A stretch of DNA of 64,000 nucleotides from Prosthecobacter algae (GTDB taxonomy: Bacteria; Verrucomicrobiota; Verrucomicrobiia; Verrucomicrobiales; Verrucomicrobiaceae). The notes beneath the pieces were generated by a model. It searched no databases and was not told where the DNA came from. It worked only from the letters and a program-made list of their open reading frames with translations. This document shows, piece after piece, positions 1,433 through 9,088 of the stretch. The DNA is taken from positions 434,001-498,000 of the forward strand of contig NZ_BAABIA010000004.1 of NCBI RefSeq assembly GCF_039542385.1, given 5' to 3'. Position numbers and translations under genes: made by a program. Positions within the stretch are counted from its first letter, which is position 1; the number at the start of each line of letters is the position of its first letter.

Positions 1433-2854
1433 GTGAAATTTAAGTGCCCCTCTTGTGACATGCAGTTGAAAGCCGAGCCCGACATGGCTGGCAAAGTCGT
1501 CCGCTGCCCCGGTTGCAACAGCAAGCTTTCCATCCCTGCCAGCGTCGGCGGGGATCTGCCTCCTCCCTCTGGCCTGCCTTCTCCCACGGGGTACACCCCC
1601 CCGCCAGATGCGGCCGCTCCGTATGAATCATCCGGTGAGCCTGCCCCCCCGGCAGATGAGCTCCAGCAGCATCGCCAGGAGCGTGGTGGTTGGGAAGAAA
1701 CAGACCCATCAAACCCAAACCCGATGCTCAGTTTTGGCATGGGCGTGGTTCTTTTCCTCGCCTGGGTTGGCATCCTTTTTCCGTTCCAGGCGCCTGAGGG
1801 CACCTCGCCTGCCGACTACACCGGCATGCAGTTCATTGCCTCCCTGTTTTACAAGCACATGCTGGTGAGTTTCACCAACACGCTGTTCTTCACCTGGGCG
1901 ATGGCCATCCTTTACCTCAAGTTCAAAAAGCTCCGCCACCAGCGCGAGGCCCTGCTTCTGGACGTGCTGCCTTGGGAACTCGGCAGTGAGATCAATGCCC
2001 AGAACGTCAGTTCCTTCATCGATAACCTCTACAAGCTGCCTGTCCGTCTTCGCGACAGCATGATGGTGAACCGCATCCGCAAGGCTCTCGAACTCTTTGA
2101 GGTCAAGCAGAACGTCGGTGACGTCACCAACATGCTCTCCAGCCAGTCTGACATCGACAGCATGCGCATCGGCGGAAGCTTCACCCTCCTGAAAGCTTTC
2201 CTGTGGGCCATCCCGATTCTCGGATTCATCGGTACCGTGCTTGGTCTCTCCCACGCCATCGGCGGCATGAACTTCTCCAACGTTGAAGACGTCAATGCCA
2301 TTATGTCCTCGATCAACAGCGTCACCAGCGGTCTGGGTACCGCCTTCGATGCCACCCTCCTCGGCCTGGTTCTCGCCATGCTCTTGAACTTCCCCATGAA
2401 CTCTATGATGAAGAGTGAGGACGACTGCCTGAACGACATCGACGCCTTCTGCAACGAAATCCTCCTCCCCCGTCTCAATGATGGTGGCAGCATCGCCGGT
2501 GGCGATACCAATGGCGTCATGGATACCCTCGTCCGCGCCGTCGCCCAGGCCCAGAAAGAGTTCCTCGTGGACCTCAACTCCCTCTCCGCCCGCATCAATG
2601 AGCAGGCAGCCAATCTGGACAAGCGCGCCACTGCCCATCAGGAGCGTGTGGATGCCGAATTCACCATGGCCATGAACCGCATGCGCGAAGACCTTACCGG
2701 TGCCATCAAAGACAGCGTCAAGACCACCTCCGAATACACCCGCGCTCTCGCTTCCGGCATTCAGGGCCTCAATAATGTGCTGACCGAACTGGGTGGCAAG
2801 CAGGTCATCATTCATCAGGTCAAAAAGAAGGGTTGGTTCAGCAAACAGGACTGA
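1433..2854 (+). CDS. Zinc-ribbon MotA/TolQ/ExbB-type proton channel protein
   Basis: 473 residues, GTG start chosen for the strong AAGGAG site before it. Residues 5-28 form a zinc ribbon (CPSC at 5-8, CPGC at 25-28), followed by a Pro-rich linker to about 80. Membrane segments are near 99-119, 143-164, 252-275 and 302-322. The last two carry the MotA/TolQ/ExbB signature (PILGFIGTVLGLSHAIGG, then GLGTAFDATLLGLVLAM), which in the family lines the ion path. A helical, probably coiled-coil cytoplasmic tail runs from about 360 to 455. The two genes downstream encode partners with an ExbD-like anchor. An ion-driven stator role at the inner membrane follows from the family; what it drives is unknown. 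The N-terminal zinc ribbon is unusual for ExbB or TolQ. Confidence 0.85.
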   Translation: MKFKCPSCDMQLKAEPDMAGKVVRCPGCNSKLSIPASVGGDLPPPSGLPSPTGYTPPPDAAAPYESSGEPAPPADELQQHRQERGGWEETDPSNPNPMLSFGMGVVLFLAWVGILFPFQAPEGTSPADYTGMQFIASLFYKHMLVSFTNTLFFTWAMAILYLKFKKLRHQREALLLDVLPWELGSEINAQNVSSFIDNLYKLPVRLRDSMMVNRIRKALELFEVKQNVGDVTNMLSSQSDIDSMRIGGSFTLLKAFLWAIPILGFIGTVLGLSHAIGGMNFSNVEDVNAIMSSINSVTSGLGTAFDATLLGLVLAMLLNFPMNSMMKSEDDCLNDIDAFCNEILLPRLNDGGSIAGGDTNGVMDTLVRAVAQAQKEFLVDLNSLSARINEQAANLDKRATAHQERVDAEFTMAMNRMREDLTGAIKDSVKTTSEYTRALASGIQGLNNVLTELGGKQVIIHQVKKKGWFSKQD

Positions 2855-2905
2855 TCCGCGCTCTTTTTTCCCCACCCTCTCTGCGTCTTCTTTCTTTGAT
2901 CCCCC

Positions 2906-3814
2906 ATGGCCAAACGACGTCATAAAGGAACAGATGAGATTCTTCTCATCCCTTTCCTGGACATTCTATGTTCCTTGATCGGCGTTCTGATCCTGATCAT
3001 CGTCGTGCTCTGCGTCTCCCAGTCTCAGCAGACCAAGGGACGCACGCCAGAAGAGATCAAGATGGCCCAGGAGTACAAAGACATGCTCAAGGAGATCAAG
3101 GAGAGGGAGAAACTACAGACCTTGATTGCCGAAAAACTGGCCAAACTGAAGGAAGTGCAAAAGAACCTGGACGACAAGCAGCAGCGTTTTGTCAAACTGC
3201 GCAAGCTGCTCGACACCTCCAAGGAACTGAAGGAGCAAAACAAAGAGATCAGCCAGAAACTCCAAAAGGAACTCGACGATCTTTTGACCGAGATCGACGG
3301 CATTGGCCGCCAGCAGAAGGAAACCCAAAAGGAGATCGAACTGCTCGCTGCCGAACTGAAAAAGCGCCAGGTGCCACCAGAGAAAAAGGTGCCGCCAGTC
3401 ATTGTTCAGCCCTCTGGATCAGGCATGGCCGATGCGACCAAAGTGTACTTCGTTGAATGCTCTTCTGGCTCTCTCCGGGTTCTTGGGGCTTGGGGCGAAG
3501 ACTATCGTTTGGCCGCCACCCCCAGCGTCGTGGTGTCCGATGTTTCGTTTAATCACCTGCTCGCCGAGGCAGCGAAGGATAAAAACTCGCTCATCCTCTT
3601 CCTCATCCGTGATGACGGTCAGGCCGCTTTCAACACGGGTGCTGGCCGTGCCGAGTCCGATTACAGCATCCGCATCGGCAAGCTGCCTATTCCTGGCCGT
3701 GGTCAGTTGGATCTCGCCCTCTTTGACAAGTATCGTGGGAAAATCTCCCCTCCTCCAGCCGCAGGGGCCCCAGCGCCCGCCCCCGCACCGGCGCCGGAAA
3801 CTAAAAAATCGTAA
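2906..3814 (+). CDS. ExbD/TolR-like anchored coiled-coil protein (first B subunit)
   Basis: 302 residues. A short basic N-terminus (MAKRRHKG) precedes one membrane helix at about 12-36 beginning IPFLDILCSLIGVLI. Asp19 sits where ExbD, TolR and MotB carry the ion-binding aspartate. A charged coiled coil rich in K, E and Q follows at about 50-155, then a globular region at about 180-275 with no domain I recognise, and a Pro/Ala tail. I see no OmpA-type peptidoglycan-binding domain. It starts 51 bp after the channel gene and the next gene follows 14 bp after its stop, so the three form an operon. The B-subunit role is inferred from the anchor and context. Confidence 0.75.
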   Translation: MAKRRHKGTDEILLIPFLDILCSLIGVLILIIVVLCVSQSQQTKGRTPEEIKMAQEYKDMLKEIKEREKLQTLIAEKLAKLKEVQKNLDDKQQRFVKLRKLLDTSKELKEQNKEISQKLQKELDDLLTEIDGIGRQQKETQKEIELLAAELKKRQVPPEKKVPPVIVQPSGSGMADATKVYFVECSSGSLRVLGAWGEDYRLAATPSVVVSDVSFNHLLAEAAKDKNSLILFLIRDDGQAAFNTGAGRAESDYSIRIGKLPIPGRGQLDLALFDKYRGKISPPPAAGAPAPAPAPAPETKKS

Positions 3815-3828
3815 CCAGCCCATTCCTT

Positions 3829-5382
3829 ATGTCCAAACACAAACATGAAGAGCAGGAATTGCCCTTCGTCGCTTTGATGGACACCATGACGAACGTCGTC
3901 GGGGTGCTCATCATCGTCATGGTCATGGTTGGCATCAGTCTTGCCAGTGCCGTCAACAAGATCCTCTCGGATCTCCCCCCGGTGACCAAAGAGGAGCACC
4001 AGCGAATGGTCGAGCAGATGAAAAAGCTGCCTCCGATTGCCGAAGATCCCAAAGATCTTGATGAAAAGAAACGCATCGCCGAACTCGAACTCAAGAAAAC
4101 GGAGGACGAGCTTAGCAAGATCGACACCACCTCGGTCCAGGCAGAAATGAAGTTTCTGGATCTCGACAGCTTCCGCAAAAAGCTGGATGATGCCAAGGCG
4201 GACCGCGAAAAGAAAAAGGCCGAAATCGAAAAGCTTCTCACGGAACTGGAGCGCCTGAAAGGCCTGCTGGATCAAACTCCCGTCTATCAACCGCCGCCGC
4301 CCAAATTCGTCCGCCTGCCCAACCCTCGCCCCTATCCGGCCAAGCCTAACGAAACTCGTATCCTGGTGGCCAAGCAGGGTGTGCTGACTCTCAACGAGGT
4401 CGAATTCATCAAGCCCATCATGGACGGCCTCGAAAAGGTCAAAAGCCAGCTTGAGTACAAGGACGTCAAAATTGACCCCTTCCTGCCCATGCTGACCAAG
4501 ATTTTTGGCACTGCCCAGGCAGCCCAGCAGGTCTGGCCGGAAATTGCTCCCCTGGTCAATACTTTCCAGATGGACCAAGTGGCCGAGGCTTACAAAACCC
4601 TCGCCACCGCAGGCCTCCAGCCTAACAAAAACATCCTCACTTCTCTCGGAGATGTCTCCGTCGTCATCCGCAGCACCTTGCCAGCCCTGGCTGAGGCCGT
4701 GGTCGCCGCCACCAAAGGAGATCTTGCCAAATGGACCGCTCTGGATCCTTCCAAAGACCCATTGAAACCCACATTCAAGGCCACTTTGGTCGGCGGAAAA
4801 ATCTCTTTTACCTATGGCTCTGGTAAACCTGTCGAAGTCAAGACCACTCCCCGGGATGTCCTCGGTTACTTCGTCAAAGACCTCGCAGATCTCGATAGTA
4901 TCAAAAACAAAAGCCGCAGCAAGGTCATCTACGATGCCTTCAAGATTCAGGCCATGCTGGAGCGTGCAGCCTCCAGCCCAACTTTGAGCGGGGCCTACGT
5001 CATCAAGCCTACCGTCCGGCCTGGCAGCACCCAGGTGGTGCTCACCCTCACTCCGCGCGCTGGCGGCGGGGAAACTCTGGAACAAATGCGCGCCGAAGGC
5101 TCCAATTACCAGCGGCTCATGCGCCAGATCAAAGGGGACCCCAATGGTGTGGCCGTTTTCCAGGTCATGGCCGATGCCTTCGATTCCTACCTCGAATCCC
5201 GCAAGATCGCCGACGACATCGGCGTGCCAGCCACCTGGGAATTCCTGGCCAAGCTCGATCTCACCGTGAACGTCAAGGATTTCGAAGTTCAGCGCTTTGC
5301 CCAAGTGGCCGCCGCTGCACCTCGCAAGCCAGGCGAACCAGATCCTGTGCGCATCGCACCGCCGAAGCGCTCGCTGGATTAA
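3829..5382 (+). CDS. ExbD/TolR-like anchored coiled-coil protein (second B subunit)
   Basis: 517 residues. Same architecture as the gene before it: short charged N-terminus, one membrane helix at about 12-38 starting LPFVALMDTMTNVVGVLI with Asp18 in the ion-binding position, and a coiled coil at about 55-150. A Pro-rich hinge near 160 leads into a long domain I do not recognise. The two anchored proteins share the anchor but not the distal domain, so they look like two distinct B subunits of one complex rather than a recent duplication. Myxococcus AglQRS, with one TolQ and two TolR homologues, is a known precedent for such a set. Exact function is unknown. Confidence 0.7.
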   Translation: MSKHKHEEQELPFVALMDTMTNVVGVLIIVMVMVGISLASAVNKILSDLPPVTKEEHQRMVEQMKKLPPIAEDPKDLDEKKRIAELELKKTEDELSKIDTTSVQAEMKFLDLDSFRKKLDDAKADREKKKAEIEKLLTELERLKGLLDQTPVYQPPPPKFVRLPNPRPYPAKPNETRILVAKQGVLTLNEVEFIKPIMDGLEKVKSQLEYKDVKIDPFLPMLTKIFGTAQAAQQVWPEIAPLVNTFQMDQVAEAYKTLATAGLQPNKNILTSLGDVSVVIRSTLPALAEAVVAATKGDLAKWTALDPSKDPLKPTFKATLVGGKISFTYGSGKPVEVKTTPRDVLGYFVKDLADLDSIKNKSRSKVIYDAFKIQAMLERAASSPTLSGAYVIKPTVRPGSTQVVLTLTPRAGGGETLEQMRAEGSNYQRLMRQIKGDPNGVAVFQVMADAFDSYLESRKIADDIGVPATWEFLAKLDLTVNVKDFEVQRFAQVAAAAPRKPGEPDPVRIAPPKRSLD

Positions 5383-5666: not shown

Positions 5667-6287
5667 ATGCATTCTGCCCTTCCTCTGTTTCGCCTCTCTG
5701 TGGCCCTGAGCTTCCTTGCTCTCGCAAGCTCCTCTTGGAGCGCTCAACTGCCCCTGGATCATCCCTGCGCCACCATGGTGAAAAAATACCTGGAGAGCGT
5801 CGTCGCCCAGGACTGGAAAACCGCTTCCGTCATGCTTCTGCCCAGCTCCCTAGAGCGGAAGCAGAAGGAAACCATCGCCATCATCAAGACCGCCCCCACG
5901 ATGACCGAAGAGGCCCAGATGCTTGAGCGTTTCGGCGTCAAAGAAATCCGCGATCTCGAAGTCCTCACCCCCCAGGAATTCTACATCACCGACCGCAGCG
6001 CTTGGCACAAGCGCGTCAACGCCGCTCCTGAGGTGACTAAGAAAAAGCAGGACACCTTGAAAATTGATGTCCTCGGTCTCGTCGAAGAGAAAGAAAAGAA
6101 CTACGTCCACGCCACCGTCCGCACCTCCCAGGAAACCCTTAGCGACCGCATCGAAGAGCTGTTCCTCATCTCCTTCGTCAAGGAAGGCGACAAGTGGCTC
6201 ATCTGGCCTGAAATGAAAGACCGTCCGATCATCACTCCCCTCGATGGAGCTAAGAAGGAAGACGGAGAAAAGAAAAAGAGCAAGTAA
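5667..6287 (+). CDS. Secreted protein of unknown function
   Basis: 206 residues with a signal peptide (hydrophobic stretch at about 8-25, cleavage probably after SSWSA). The mature part holds a small alpha/beta region that looks like a periplasmic stress or NTF2-like fold, ending in a Lys-rich tail; I recognise no catalytic motif. The segment DTLKIDVLGLVEEKEKNYVH and the late WLIWPEMKD are the most structured parts. It stands alone between the stator operon (284 bp upstream) and mnmE (95 bp downstream). The tail of Lys and Glu may be disordered. Confidence 0.7.
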   Translation: MHSALPLFRLSVALSFLALASSSWSAQLPLDHPCATMVKKYLESVVAQDWKTASVMLLPSSLERKQKETIAIIKTAPTMTEEAQMLERFGVKEIRDLEVLTPQEFYITDRSAWHKRVNAAPEVTKKKQDTLKIDVLGLVEEKEKNYVHATVRTSQETLSDRIEELFLISFVKEGDKWLIWPEMKDRPIITPLDGAKKEDGEKKKSK

Positions 6288-6382: not shown

Positions 6383-7729
6383 ATGCTTCAAGATACCATC
6401 GCCGCCATCTCCACTGCACTGGGAGAGGCGGCGATTAGCGTTTTAAGGGTCACCGGACCGGAGGCCCTCAAAGTCGCCCAGTCCGTCTTCCGCGCAGGCC
6501 GTGACATCACCGCTCTGCAGCCCAGGCACGCCCATCTGGTCACCGCCAGGGAGGCCGATGGCTCCACCCTGGACCAGGGGCTTCTCCTCGTCTTTCGCGC
6601 TCCTGCCAGCTACACGGGGGAAGACGTGGTCGAGTTCCATGGCCACGGCGGTTTGTTGGTCACCCAAAAGCTTTTTGAATCTCTGCTCGCGGCGGGAGCC
6701 CGCGCGGCGGGTCCGGGCGAGTTCACCCAGCGTGCCTTTCTCAATGGCAAAATGGATCTCACCCAGGCCGAGGCCGTCATGGATCTCATCCATGCCCAAA
6801 GCACCCTCGCACTGAAGGCCGCGCATGAGCAGCTCGGCGGAGCCATCGGCCGCGAAGCCCTGGCCCTGAAGGAGGAGCTCCTCCCCGTCCTCGCCCATGT
6901 CGAGGCCTACATTGATTTCCCGGAAGAGGACATCTCGCCAGATACCGGGGCCGCCCTCGTCGCCAAAATGGACCTGGTGCTCCAGCGCGCAGGCCGCCTC
7001 ATTGCCACCAGCGAACAGGGGCGCATCCTCCGCCACGGTGCCCGCACCGTCATCTGCGGCGAGCCCAACGTGGGCAAGTCCAGCTTACTAAATCTCTTGT
7101 TAGGCTTCGAGCGCGCCATCGTCAGCCCCACGGCCGGCACCACCCGCGATACCATCGAGGAAATCATCCAGGTCCACGGCATCCCTCTGCGCCTGGTGGA
7201 TACCGCCGGCCTGCGCAGCAGCCAGGATGAGATTGAGCGCGTCGGCATCGAGCGCACTCAGCGCGAGCTGGAACGTGCAGATCTGATCTTGGAAGTGGTT
7301 GATGGCAGCCTCCCTCCTTCATCAGCCCTGCGCGTCACCCTACCTCCTCAGGCCGAGGCCCGGCGCATCCTCATTTTAAACAAGGCCGATCAGGGGCTCC
7401 ATCCGGACTGGACAGGCGGCGTCCCGCTTTCCTGCACGGCCAATGTTGGCGTCGAAATGCTTCGCGAGGCCATCCGCACCCTCATCATGAGCGCGGGGAC
7501 CATGCAGGCAGACCACCCCATCGCCATCAATGCCCGCCATAAGATTTGCTTCGAGCGCATCGTTTCCCAGGTCCAGGCTGCCCGCGTTGCCCTCATAGAT
7601 GGTGCTGCCCCGGAATACGTCGCCCTCGATCTTCGTGAGGCCCTTCAATCGGTGGGTGAAGTCGTCGGCGTCGTCGATGTGGAGCAGATTCTCGACGTCA
7701 TCTTCTCCTCCTTCTGCATCGGCAAGTGA
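6383..7729 (+). CDS. mnmE: tRNA modification GTPase MnmE
   Basis: 448 residues, near the normal length. With MnmG it installs the 5-carboxymethylaminomethyl group on wobble uridine 34 of certain tRNAs, using methylene-tetrahydrofolate. Visible are the N-terminal folate domain (DTIAAISTALGEAAISVLR), the GTPase G1 loop GEPNVGKS at 226-233, the GTTRDT switch, DTAG, NKAD, and the C-terminal FCIGK whose cysteine is conserved in the family. The start at 6383 directly gives the expected N-terminus. The gene converges with the next one, stopping 6 bp from it. The word TTGTTAGGC occurs at 7097-7105 inside the G1 helix region. Confidence 0.97.
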   Translation: MLQDTIAAISTALGEAAISVLRVTGPEALKVAQSVFRAGRDITALQPRHAHLVTAREADGSTLDQGLLLVFRAPASYTGEDVVEFHGHGGLLVTQKLFESLLAAGARAAGPGEFTQRAFLNGKMDLTQAEAVMDLIHAQSTLALKAAHEQLGGAIGREALALKEELLPVLAHVEAYIDFPEEDISPDTGAALVAKMDLVLQRAGRLIATSEQGRILRHGARTVICGEPNVGKSSLLNLLLGFERAIVSPTAGTTRDTIEEIIQVHGIPLRLVDTAGLRSSQDEIERVGIERTQRELERADLILEVVDGSLPPSSALRVTLPPQAEARRILILNKADQGLHPDWTGGVPLSCTANVGVEMLREAIRTLIMSAGTMQADHPIAINARHKICFERIVSQVQAARVALIDGAAPEYVALDLREALQSVGEVVGVVDVEQILDVIFSSFCIGK

Positions 7730-7735
7730 GCCGCC

Positions 7736-8347
7736 TCAGGACCGCGAAGCCCTTGGGATCTTCGCCTTGTTTAAAAGGCTATCCAGAGGGTAGGGGGTCG
7801 CTTGGAACTGGGGCTCAGGATTCATATGAATCATTCCCGCTTCGGCGTCTTCGATGAACAGCAGCGTCCTGGAGCATTCATAACAAATCAGCAGATCATG
7901 GCGCTTGCCCTCATGAACGATGCGGATGCCATGCCGTGGCCAAAAGCAGCCCGCCACACCGCTCTGCCAGTTTTTGCCGGAGACATCGAGGGCGGTCACC
8001 ACATAGCGCAGCTTTTCATTTTCCTTGAGCTGTAACTGACCCAGCACCGCATGGTCATGGAAGACATCCTTGGGTGTGGCAAGCTGTTTAGCATCAGCGC
8101 GTGATTTGGATTCCCCAGTCGGCTCGGCAAAGGGATCTCCGCTCTGCTGCGTACTCCAGGGGTCTGGATACAGCGAATACAAGGTCCACTCCGTGGCCTG
8201 TAGGTAGGGCAGCAGTTGTTCACTCTTGTATTCATTGGCGGCCTTTACTTCTTTGGATTCGGCTACCAGACATGAGGAGGCCGTGTGCAGCCCAGCACCC
8301 GCCGTGCAGGCGATCCATGATCTCCTCGTGATAAACAACGGGTGCAT
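7736..8347 (-). CDS. Hypothetical exported protein
   Basis: 203 residues. The N-terminus has a twin-arginine-like stretch (FITRRSWIACTAGAGL) followed by a short apolar segment, suggesting export. The mature part contains three cysteines (GCFWPRHG, ICYECS) and a C-terminal motif FIEDAEAGMIHMNPEPQF. I do not recognise the family. It converges with mnmE and is followed upstream by a small lipoprotein-like gene in the same direction, 50 bp away, so the two may be co-transcribed. Start codon at 8347 is the only one that keeps the export-like leader. Confidence 0.6.
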   Translation of the reverse strand: MHPLFITRRSWIACTAGAGLHTASSCLVAESKEVKAANEYKSEQLLPYLQATEWTLYSLYPDPWSTQQSGDPFAEPTGESKSRADAKQLATPKDVFHDHAVLGQLQLKENEKLRYVVTALDVSGKNWQSGVAGCFWPRHGIRIVHEGKRHDLLICYECSRTLLFIEDAEAGMIHMNPEPQFQATPYPLDSLLNKAKIPRASRS

Positions 8348-8397: not shown

Positions 8398-8958
8398 TTA
8401 ACGCCTCGCTTCAAAGGCATCGTAATACCCGCGCTCAAAGCTCCGCCTGTAGCGTGGATCATAGCGGCCCACATGGGCCCCGGCATCCGCCTGTCTCCCT
8501 GCCACACGGTCGCGGAGGCCATACTCATAGCCCTGGCTGTAGGAAGGGTCGTTTTGTGACTGGCTCGGCGGCAGCTCAGGCGGCGTGTATCCCCCCGTGC
8601 CTGGATAGCTGGGGGCCGGGCCATATCCGGGTGCGCCTCCAGAAGGGGCCGCTGTCCTGTAACCTTGCTCATAGCCATCATTGTAGGCCGTGGCTTGGGT
8701 GGAGGAATAACCAAAAGGATTGCGCTGCAAGTTTCTCGCCATGCCGCCGCGTGCATCGTCCTGGCCATCCCGCTGACCACGGTCATAGGCCTGCTGCGCC
8801 TGCCCGCGATCCTGCTCCCGCATGTCCGTGCGGTATTGTTCCCGCCCATCGGTGTAGGGCGGGGGATTTCCTGGGCCAAAAGGCGACATGGGGTTTCCAT
8901 AAGGATCCACACATTGGGTCAGGGCCAGGGGCAGGCAGCAGAGGAGCAGGCGTCGCAT
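8398..8958 (-). CDS. Putative Gly/Tyr/Arg-rich lipoprotein
   Basis: 186 residues from the ATG at 8958. This start is chosen because it gives a short signal MRRLLLCCLPLALTQC with a lipobox-like cysteine at 16 (LTQC, where Q at -1 is atypical). The mature protein is low complexity: Tyr-Gly-Arg-Asp-Gln repeats such as AYDRGQRDGQDD, a Pro-rich middle and repeated YxxGYExGYR-like units (DGYEQGYR, QGYEYGLR, RGYYDAF). The spaced YxxG pattern suggests a repetitive surface or envelope protein, but no function is inferable. It is read away from the large gene starting at 9089, with divergent starts 130 bp apart. Confidence 0.65.
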   Translation of the reverse strand: MRRLLLCCLPLALTQCVDPYGNPMSPFGPGNPPPYTDGREQYRTDMREQDRGQAQQAYDRGQRDGQDDARGGMARNLQRNPFGYSSTQATAYNDGYEQGYRTAAPSGGAPGYGPAPSYPGTGGYTPPELPPSQSQNDPSYSQGYEYGLRDRVAGRQADAGAHVGRYDPRYRRSFERGYYDAFEARR

Positions 8959-9088
8959 GGTGAAAAATAGCGCATTCCTTTCATGAAAGCCAAGGGGAAG
9001 ATCGGCATAGGCAGCCGCCGCGGCCAGATTCAGAATCTCACCTGCTATCCTCGTTGCAGAGCATAAAAACATCCGCTAAAACCCCTCC

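Follow-up and report, generated by a model that had tools for sequence, protein, structure and literature searches.

A stretch of 64,000 nucleotides from Prosthecobacter algae (contig NZ_BAABIA010000004.1, positions 434,001 to 498,000; the whole stretch is referred to here as the window) contains three consecutive genes, designated A, B1, and B2 (positions 1433 to 5382), that encode one protein of the MotA/TolQ/ExbB family and two different membrane-anchored partners. Do both partners sit in the pore of one motor? For motors with two B subunits, this heterodimer question was left open in a 2022 review on AglQ/AglS (PMC9389320). The A-B1-B2 set is probably an ion-driven inner-membrane motor of the 5:2 class, whose heteromeric core comes in two versions that are exchanged as sets. 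Joint swaps of three membrane segments, which took place at least ten times, together with an acidic residue that has moved between the B helices, point to a single pore that holds both B1 and B2.

An initial annotation had described the three genes as an operon; the open reading frames are confirmed and adjacent, with gaps of 51 bases (A-B1) and 14 bases (B1-B2), and the genes are clearly conserved as a set. Of 48 species of the genus, each sampled by a single genome, 46 carry B1, as one full-length copy per genome, and A, B1, and B2 are adjacent and in the same order in every examined locus with enough contig, except for two decayed loci.

Two types of membrane core

Comparison of 69 distinct complete A-B1-B2 sets divides them into two types, with no exceptions. 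The D-type (48 sets, including the one in the window) has Asp19 in B1, Val14 in B2, and Ala307 in A, whereas the S-type (21 sets) has Ser19, Asp14, and Thr307 at these positions. Asp18 of B2 and Thr268 and Thr308 of A are invariant in all 69 sets. The positions and segments concerned are as follows (all on the + strand).

1433 to 2854: gene A, 473 amino acids (aa), GTG start (open reading frame, PF01618 match, and alignment)
1715 to 2422: swappable membrane core of A, residues 95 to 330 (single type split on the core tree)
2234 to 2236: Thr268 of A, a pore-type threonine in transmembrane (TM) helix 3 (invariant)
2351 to 2356: Ala307-Thr308 of A, in TM4 (residue 307 is Ala in the D-type and Thr in the S-type; Thr308 is invariant)
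2906 to 3814: gene B1, 302 aa, a coiled-coil protein with a membrane anchor and a TolR/ExbD-like terminal domain
2906 to 3043: N-terminal and TM segment of B1, residues 1 to 46, swappable
2960 to 2962: Asp19 of B1, in a PFLD motif (Ser in S-type relatives)
3829 to 5382: gene B2, 517 aa, anchored, with a helical stalk and a TolR-like domain that a large insert interrupts
3829 to 3966: N-terminal and TM segment of B2, residues 1 to 46, swappable
3868 to 3870: Val14 of B2, D-type (Asp in S-type relatives)
3880 to 3882: Asp18 of B2 (invariant)

There are 24 fixed differences between the types: 13 in A (positions 136 to 307), 4 in B1 (positions 19 to 27), and 7 in B2 (positions 12 to 28). All of them fall in membrane segments; the zinc ribbon and tail of A are free of them, as are the distal parts of B1 and B2. 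Either type has two acidic residues close to where the B helices begin (B1-19, B2-14, B2-18), but their placement differs. An aspartate close to the N-terminal end of the single TM helix is thus always found in B2 (Asp18) and only in the D-type in B1; the earlier claim that both B proteins carry one holds for the window (Asp19 and Asp18) but fails for the 21 sets in which B1 has Ser. A B1 homodimer of the S-type would be devoid of an acid at the canonical site, an argument in favour of a B1-B2 pair. The association holds in 10 phylogenetically independent contrasts, all of them concordant (p 0.002). Deeper relatives within the phylum are almost all S-type, and the D-type version therefore looks derived.

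The two types do not follow the history of the rest of the genes. The tree of the B1 and B2 distal domains requires at least 12 changes of type, 10 of them on well-supported branches, and each change affects all three genes together; a single S-type clade on this tree is rejected (p-AU 4.65e-5). The tree of the A core and the tree of the B N-terminal segments each show one type change, and the A core tree still shows a single type split after removal of its 13 diagnostic columns. On the trees of the other parts, the type changes 10 times (A tail), 9 times (B1 distal part), and 13 times (B2 distal part). The two types are separated by a core distance of about 0.42 to 0.46, irrespective of whether the distal parts differ by less than 10% or by more than 50%; within types, the core distance scales with the distal distance (rho 0.73 and 0.83).

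The same pattern is seen in the DNA and in the flanking genes. DNA identity between the compared loci drops in three troughs, one per gene, amid flanks of 80 to 90%. The upstream nusB, ftsY-like, and ribB-like genes go together with the distal parts (rho 0.65 to 0.85) and not with the core (0.18 to 0.19). For example, identity between the D-type locus L045 and the S-type locus L118 is 98% for the RibB-like protein, 92% for the distal parts, and 57% for the core. One and the same ribH-nusB locus hosts the D-type in the genome of the window, its near relative G019, and G220 and the S-type in G018 and G231. Together, these comparisons provide strong evolutionary evidence that the A/B1/B2 membrane core exists as two ancient, co-adapted, and interchangeable versions. 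The three membrane segments appear to act as one co-adapted part, as expected for an ion path common to A, B1, and B2. The heteromeric ion-driven machine suggested in the initial annotation is well supported, now by this concerted evolution. As regards habitat, the titles of the database records suggest that D- and S-types both occur within the same sampling series.

Architecture of the three subunits

Protein A consists of a zinc ribbon, a four-TM MotA/TolQ/ExbB core, and a coiled-coil tail, much as originally annotated. The remaining features of the locus are as follows (all on the + strand).

1418 to 1423: AAGGAG, likely ribosome-binding site of A (read from the sequence)
1433 to 1537: zinc ribbon CPSC...CPGC of A, residues 1 to 35 (kept in relatives in the A alignment)
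2423 to 2851: coiled-coil tail of A with a conserved terminal KKGWFS motif (its tree does not follow the type; alignment)
3047 to 3367: unbroken 107-residue helix of B1, residues 48 to 154 (AlphaFold2 model)
3440 to 3688: TolR/ExbD-like periplasmic domain of B1, residues 179 to 261 (VIA-align)
4291 to 5250: TolR-like domain of B2, model residues 155 to 474 (VIA-align)
about 4441 to 4938: insert of roughly 150 residues inside the TolR-like domain of B2 (absent from short-form relatives)

Residues 215 to 328 of A match the MotA_ExbB domain (PF01618) with 44 bits against a curated cut-off of 22.9, and A is a member of the MotA/TolQ/ExbB family; by the established topology of this family, its zinc ribbon and tail are predicted to be cytoplasmic. 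Thr268 and Thr308, present in A of all 69 sets, are the threonines of TM3 and TM4 that we take, by motif, to be equivalent to the ring threonines of ExbB. A sequence search against solved structures gave nothing convincing for A, only a weak match to PomA.

The lengths of the B proteins (302 and 517 residues) are as annotated, and no OmpA-type domain was matched in B1 or B2 in the profile scan at E values up to 1, again in agreement with the initial annotation. Two of its other statements did not survive. B1 and B2 were called non-paralogous, but their profiles match each other over the anchor and stalk with a probability of 97.3 (E value 2.5e-11), and judged by these profiles they are homologues. 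Nor do they seem fully unlike beyond the anchor, as TolR is the best structural match of both distal domains. The AlphaFold2 model of B1 shows a TM helix followed by the 107-residue helix and a small alpha-beta domain. In VIA-align comparisons, this domain matches TolR (5by4) first, with a Z score of 7.3, and ExbD (8p9r) with a Z score of 6.1 (2.4 A over 71 of 74 residues). For B2, TolR (5by4) is likewise first (Z score 6.4, 94 of 105 residues at 3.3 A), and the next row has a score of 4.3. The insert, which B2 proteins of this genus carry and which is predicted with high confidence, is missing from short-form relatives of 363 to 404 aa (short-long alignment).

The profile search for known domains suggested at the outset found none above the curated Pfam cut-offs in B1 or B2; for ExbD/TolR (PF02472), B2 scores 10.8 bits against a cut-off of 25.4 and B1 is unlisted. 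Foldseek searches with the B1 and B2 models gave no match at E values below 0.001. Sequence searches against solved structures yielded a weak match of B1 to MotB (E value 0.007) and, for B2, coiled coils and chance-level rows only. The simplest reading of the models is that B1 and B2 represent two diverged ExbD/TolR-type subunits with long stalks.

Proposed motor and competing explanations

The A-B1-B2 set probably forms a motor of the MotAB/ExbBD/TolQR class, in which a ring of A would surround one B1 and one B2, most likely in a 5:1:1 ratio. Ions would enter via the acidic residues with which the B helices begin and via Thr268 and Thr308, the ring threonines of A, and the B1/B2 pair would carry motion along its long periplasmic stalks to the TolR/ExbD-like terminal domains, which may hold on to peptidoglycan or to some other partner in the envelope. 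On the cytoplasmic face, as many as five zinc ribbons and coiled-coil tails would be displayed. Each core version would be inherited and exchanged as a set, with the remainder of the three genes recombining freely and following the host lineage. We infer the stoichiometry, ion coupling, rotation, and anchoring, as well as any selection that keeps both types. Since the machine is found in nearly all species of the genus, the most likely guess at its role is envelope maintenance or a cell-wall machine.

Several points weigh against this assignment. The sample of one genome per species covers variation between species rather than polymorphism within them, many of the sampled genomes are metagenome-assembled, and the distal tree comes from a quick search. 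The TolR-like assignment rests on moderate Z scores (7.3 and 6.4), at which chance arrangements occur, and neither Foldseek nor PF02472 supports it at the thresholds given above; it is helped by TolR ranking top for both B1 and B2.

Two separate motors, A5-B1(2) and A5-B2(2), could in principle use a common ring protein for different jobs, and the unequal size of B1 and B2 would fit such a division, as would the likewise unsettled case of AglR with its two MotB-like partners (PMC9389320). This arrangement is improbable, because an acid-free B1 homodimer with Ser19, as in all 21 S-type sets, would probably be dead and because B1 and B2 agree in type in each of the 69 sets, while the acid passes from one to the other. 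A still different origin of the types, in which functional sites acquired the same point mutations repeatedly and in parallel with no exchange of segments, would account for identical residues changing together each time, as might be expected of tightly coupled sites; it is almost certainly wrong, as it is contradicted by the single split of the column-stripped A core tree and by the three troughs of DNA identity. In close relatives of opposite type, core identity is 44 to 60% in most segments against 80 to 95% in the flanks. As to function, a Zorya-like anti-phage motor is brought to mind by the cytoplasmic tail of A, its weak matches to ZorA models (28.6 bits for the best NCBIfam model; 40.8 bits in PADLOC), and weak matches of ZorB models to the B anchors and stalks. 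It is very unlikely, given that A scores well short of the cut-offs of the curated ZorA models (100 to 700), that no recognised effector genes lie alongside and the neighbours vary by lineage, that the ends of B1 and B2 are TolR-like and not OmpA-like, and that a set carried by 46 of 48 species does not behave like a mobile defence gene.

Why both versions of the motor core persist is a separate matter. The candidate reasons are selection by phages or toxins, ion preference, and neutral exchange in which only mixed sets are selected against. The core could tentatively be regarded as a trans-species balanced polymorphism, that is, two ancient versions spanning three genes and kept across the genus. 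If so, the acid that moves between B1-19 and B2-14 would be a natural experiment on which axle helix of a heteromeric 5:1:1 motor needs the ion-binding group. Phages or toxins that use the motor might perhaps keep both versions; the pIII protein of phage fd is reported to contact TolQ-TolR (PMC10424213). The types could also be neutral alternatives, spread by chance recombination between related species with no selection for both. Both types occur in numerous subclades of the genus as well as in relatives, and within-type core distance scales with host distance, as such local exchange predicts; even so, this explanation is rather doubtful, as perfect linkage of three separated segments across unlinked DNA needs at least strong selection against mixed sets, and drift would hardly explain how both types last across many lineages.

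For the one-pore motor, these natural variants provide ready-made swap constructs and make the heterodimer question directly testable. Coordinated exchange of a multi-gene protein interface, with the rest of the genes staying with the host, has rarely been described in bacteria. What is new here is the concerted exchange of the core and the acid that moves, neither of which was found in a limited literature search; the gene layout was already known in kind.

Gene neighbourhood and related systems

Beyond the genus sample, the set reaches records of Prosthecobacter, Brevifollis, and Verrucomicrobium, as well as genomes of Akkermansiaceae and Chthoniobacteraceae, and it also occurs more distantly across Verrucomicrobiota. 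Many genomes of the order are without it, including every listed genome of a large genus (g2). In the examined loci, no conserved partner gene was found and the neighbours are not conserved beyond close relatives, so that the three genes are the unit; ribH-nusB and the ftsY-like gene are common to one part of the genus only. Neither second copies nor silent core cassettes were found in the genomes of the genus, and a scan of viral contigs revealed no phage-borne copies. The two decayed loci belong to related genomes. In both (L165, positions 6609 to 6983; L159, positions 6586 to 6930), a deletion has fused the leading portion of A with the final residues of B1; L159 also has a frameshift and a B2 that runs off the contig, and in L165 B2 is intact. 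Downstream of B2 in the window (positions 5667 to 6287) lies a gene for a secreted-looking 206-aa protein, which exceeds B2 in conservation among the nearest relatives but does not belong to the set elsewhere.

The layout is a variant of known 5:2 motors, as one MotA-like protein with two different B subunits has already been reported. The initial statement that known pairs use a single B subunit was accordingly too strong: heterologous TolR-like pairs are reported alongside a TolQ-like gene in the PVC group (PMC12204202), and the genome of the window itself has, elsewhere (L208, contig C3), an ordinary ExbB gene with two distinct ExbD genes after it. In Xanthomonas, exbD1 and exbD2 have been described (PMC3551730). 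With ExbB-ExbD and TolQ-TolR (PF01618 with PF02472), the set shares the MotA_ExbB domain of A, the ring threonines, the canonical PF-x-D motif of B1, and the best match of both B ends to the TolR structure. It differs from them in having two different long-stalked B subunits that PF02472 does not detect, the zinc ribbon and coiled-coil tail of A, and the large insert of B2, and no TonB or TolA is recognised beside it.

By gene layout, the set resembles the AglRQS gliding motor of Myxococcus, which has one MotA-like subunit and two MotB/TolR-like subunits of unknown pairing (PMC9389320). However, the Agl B subunits are short, the Agl genes are part of a gliding apparatus that comprises about 20 proteins and is not seen here, and core swapping is not described for Agl in the literature examined. 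The PVC pairs come from the same phylum group and likewise line up one TolQ-like gene with two TolR-like genes that differ from each other, but the present set occurs in many unrelated contexts, with no recognised vWA or TPR gene alongside; no vWA domain was matched in B1, B2, or the downstream genes at positions 5667 to 6287, 7736 to 8347, and 8398 to 9072. Zorya ZorAB, published as a 5:2 complex (PMC11890865), likewise combines a MotA-like ring protein that has a cytoplasmic tail with a TM-anchored partner; the set described here differs in its scores below the ZorA cut-offs, its two B subunits, the lack of recognised effectors, and its near-universal presence in the genus.

A five-gene relative is found in many species of the genus (L203, L205, L206) and encodes proteins of 996 aa and 219 aa (the latter with DUF4190), followed by A', B', and B''. 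A' is homologous to A (E value 8e-47), and the two anchored B proteins are again different from each other, but this system has no zinc ribbon, includes two extra genes, occupies a separate locus, and has an acid in both B proteins. Across Verrucomicrobiota there are several further families with one A and two B proteins (L211-L228), whose B motifs include SLFSFQDIIT and SLELLLDTMCN.

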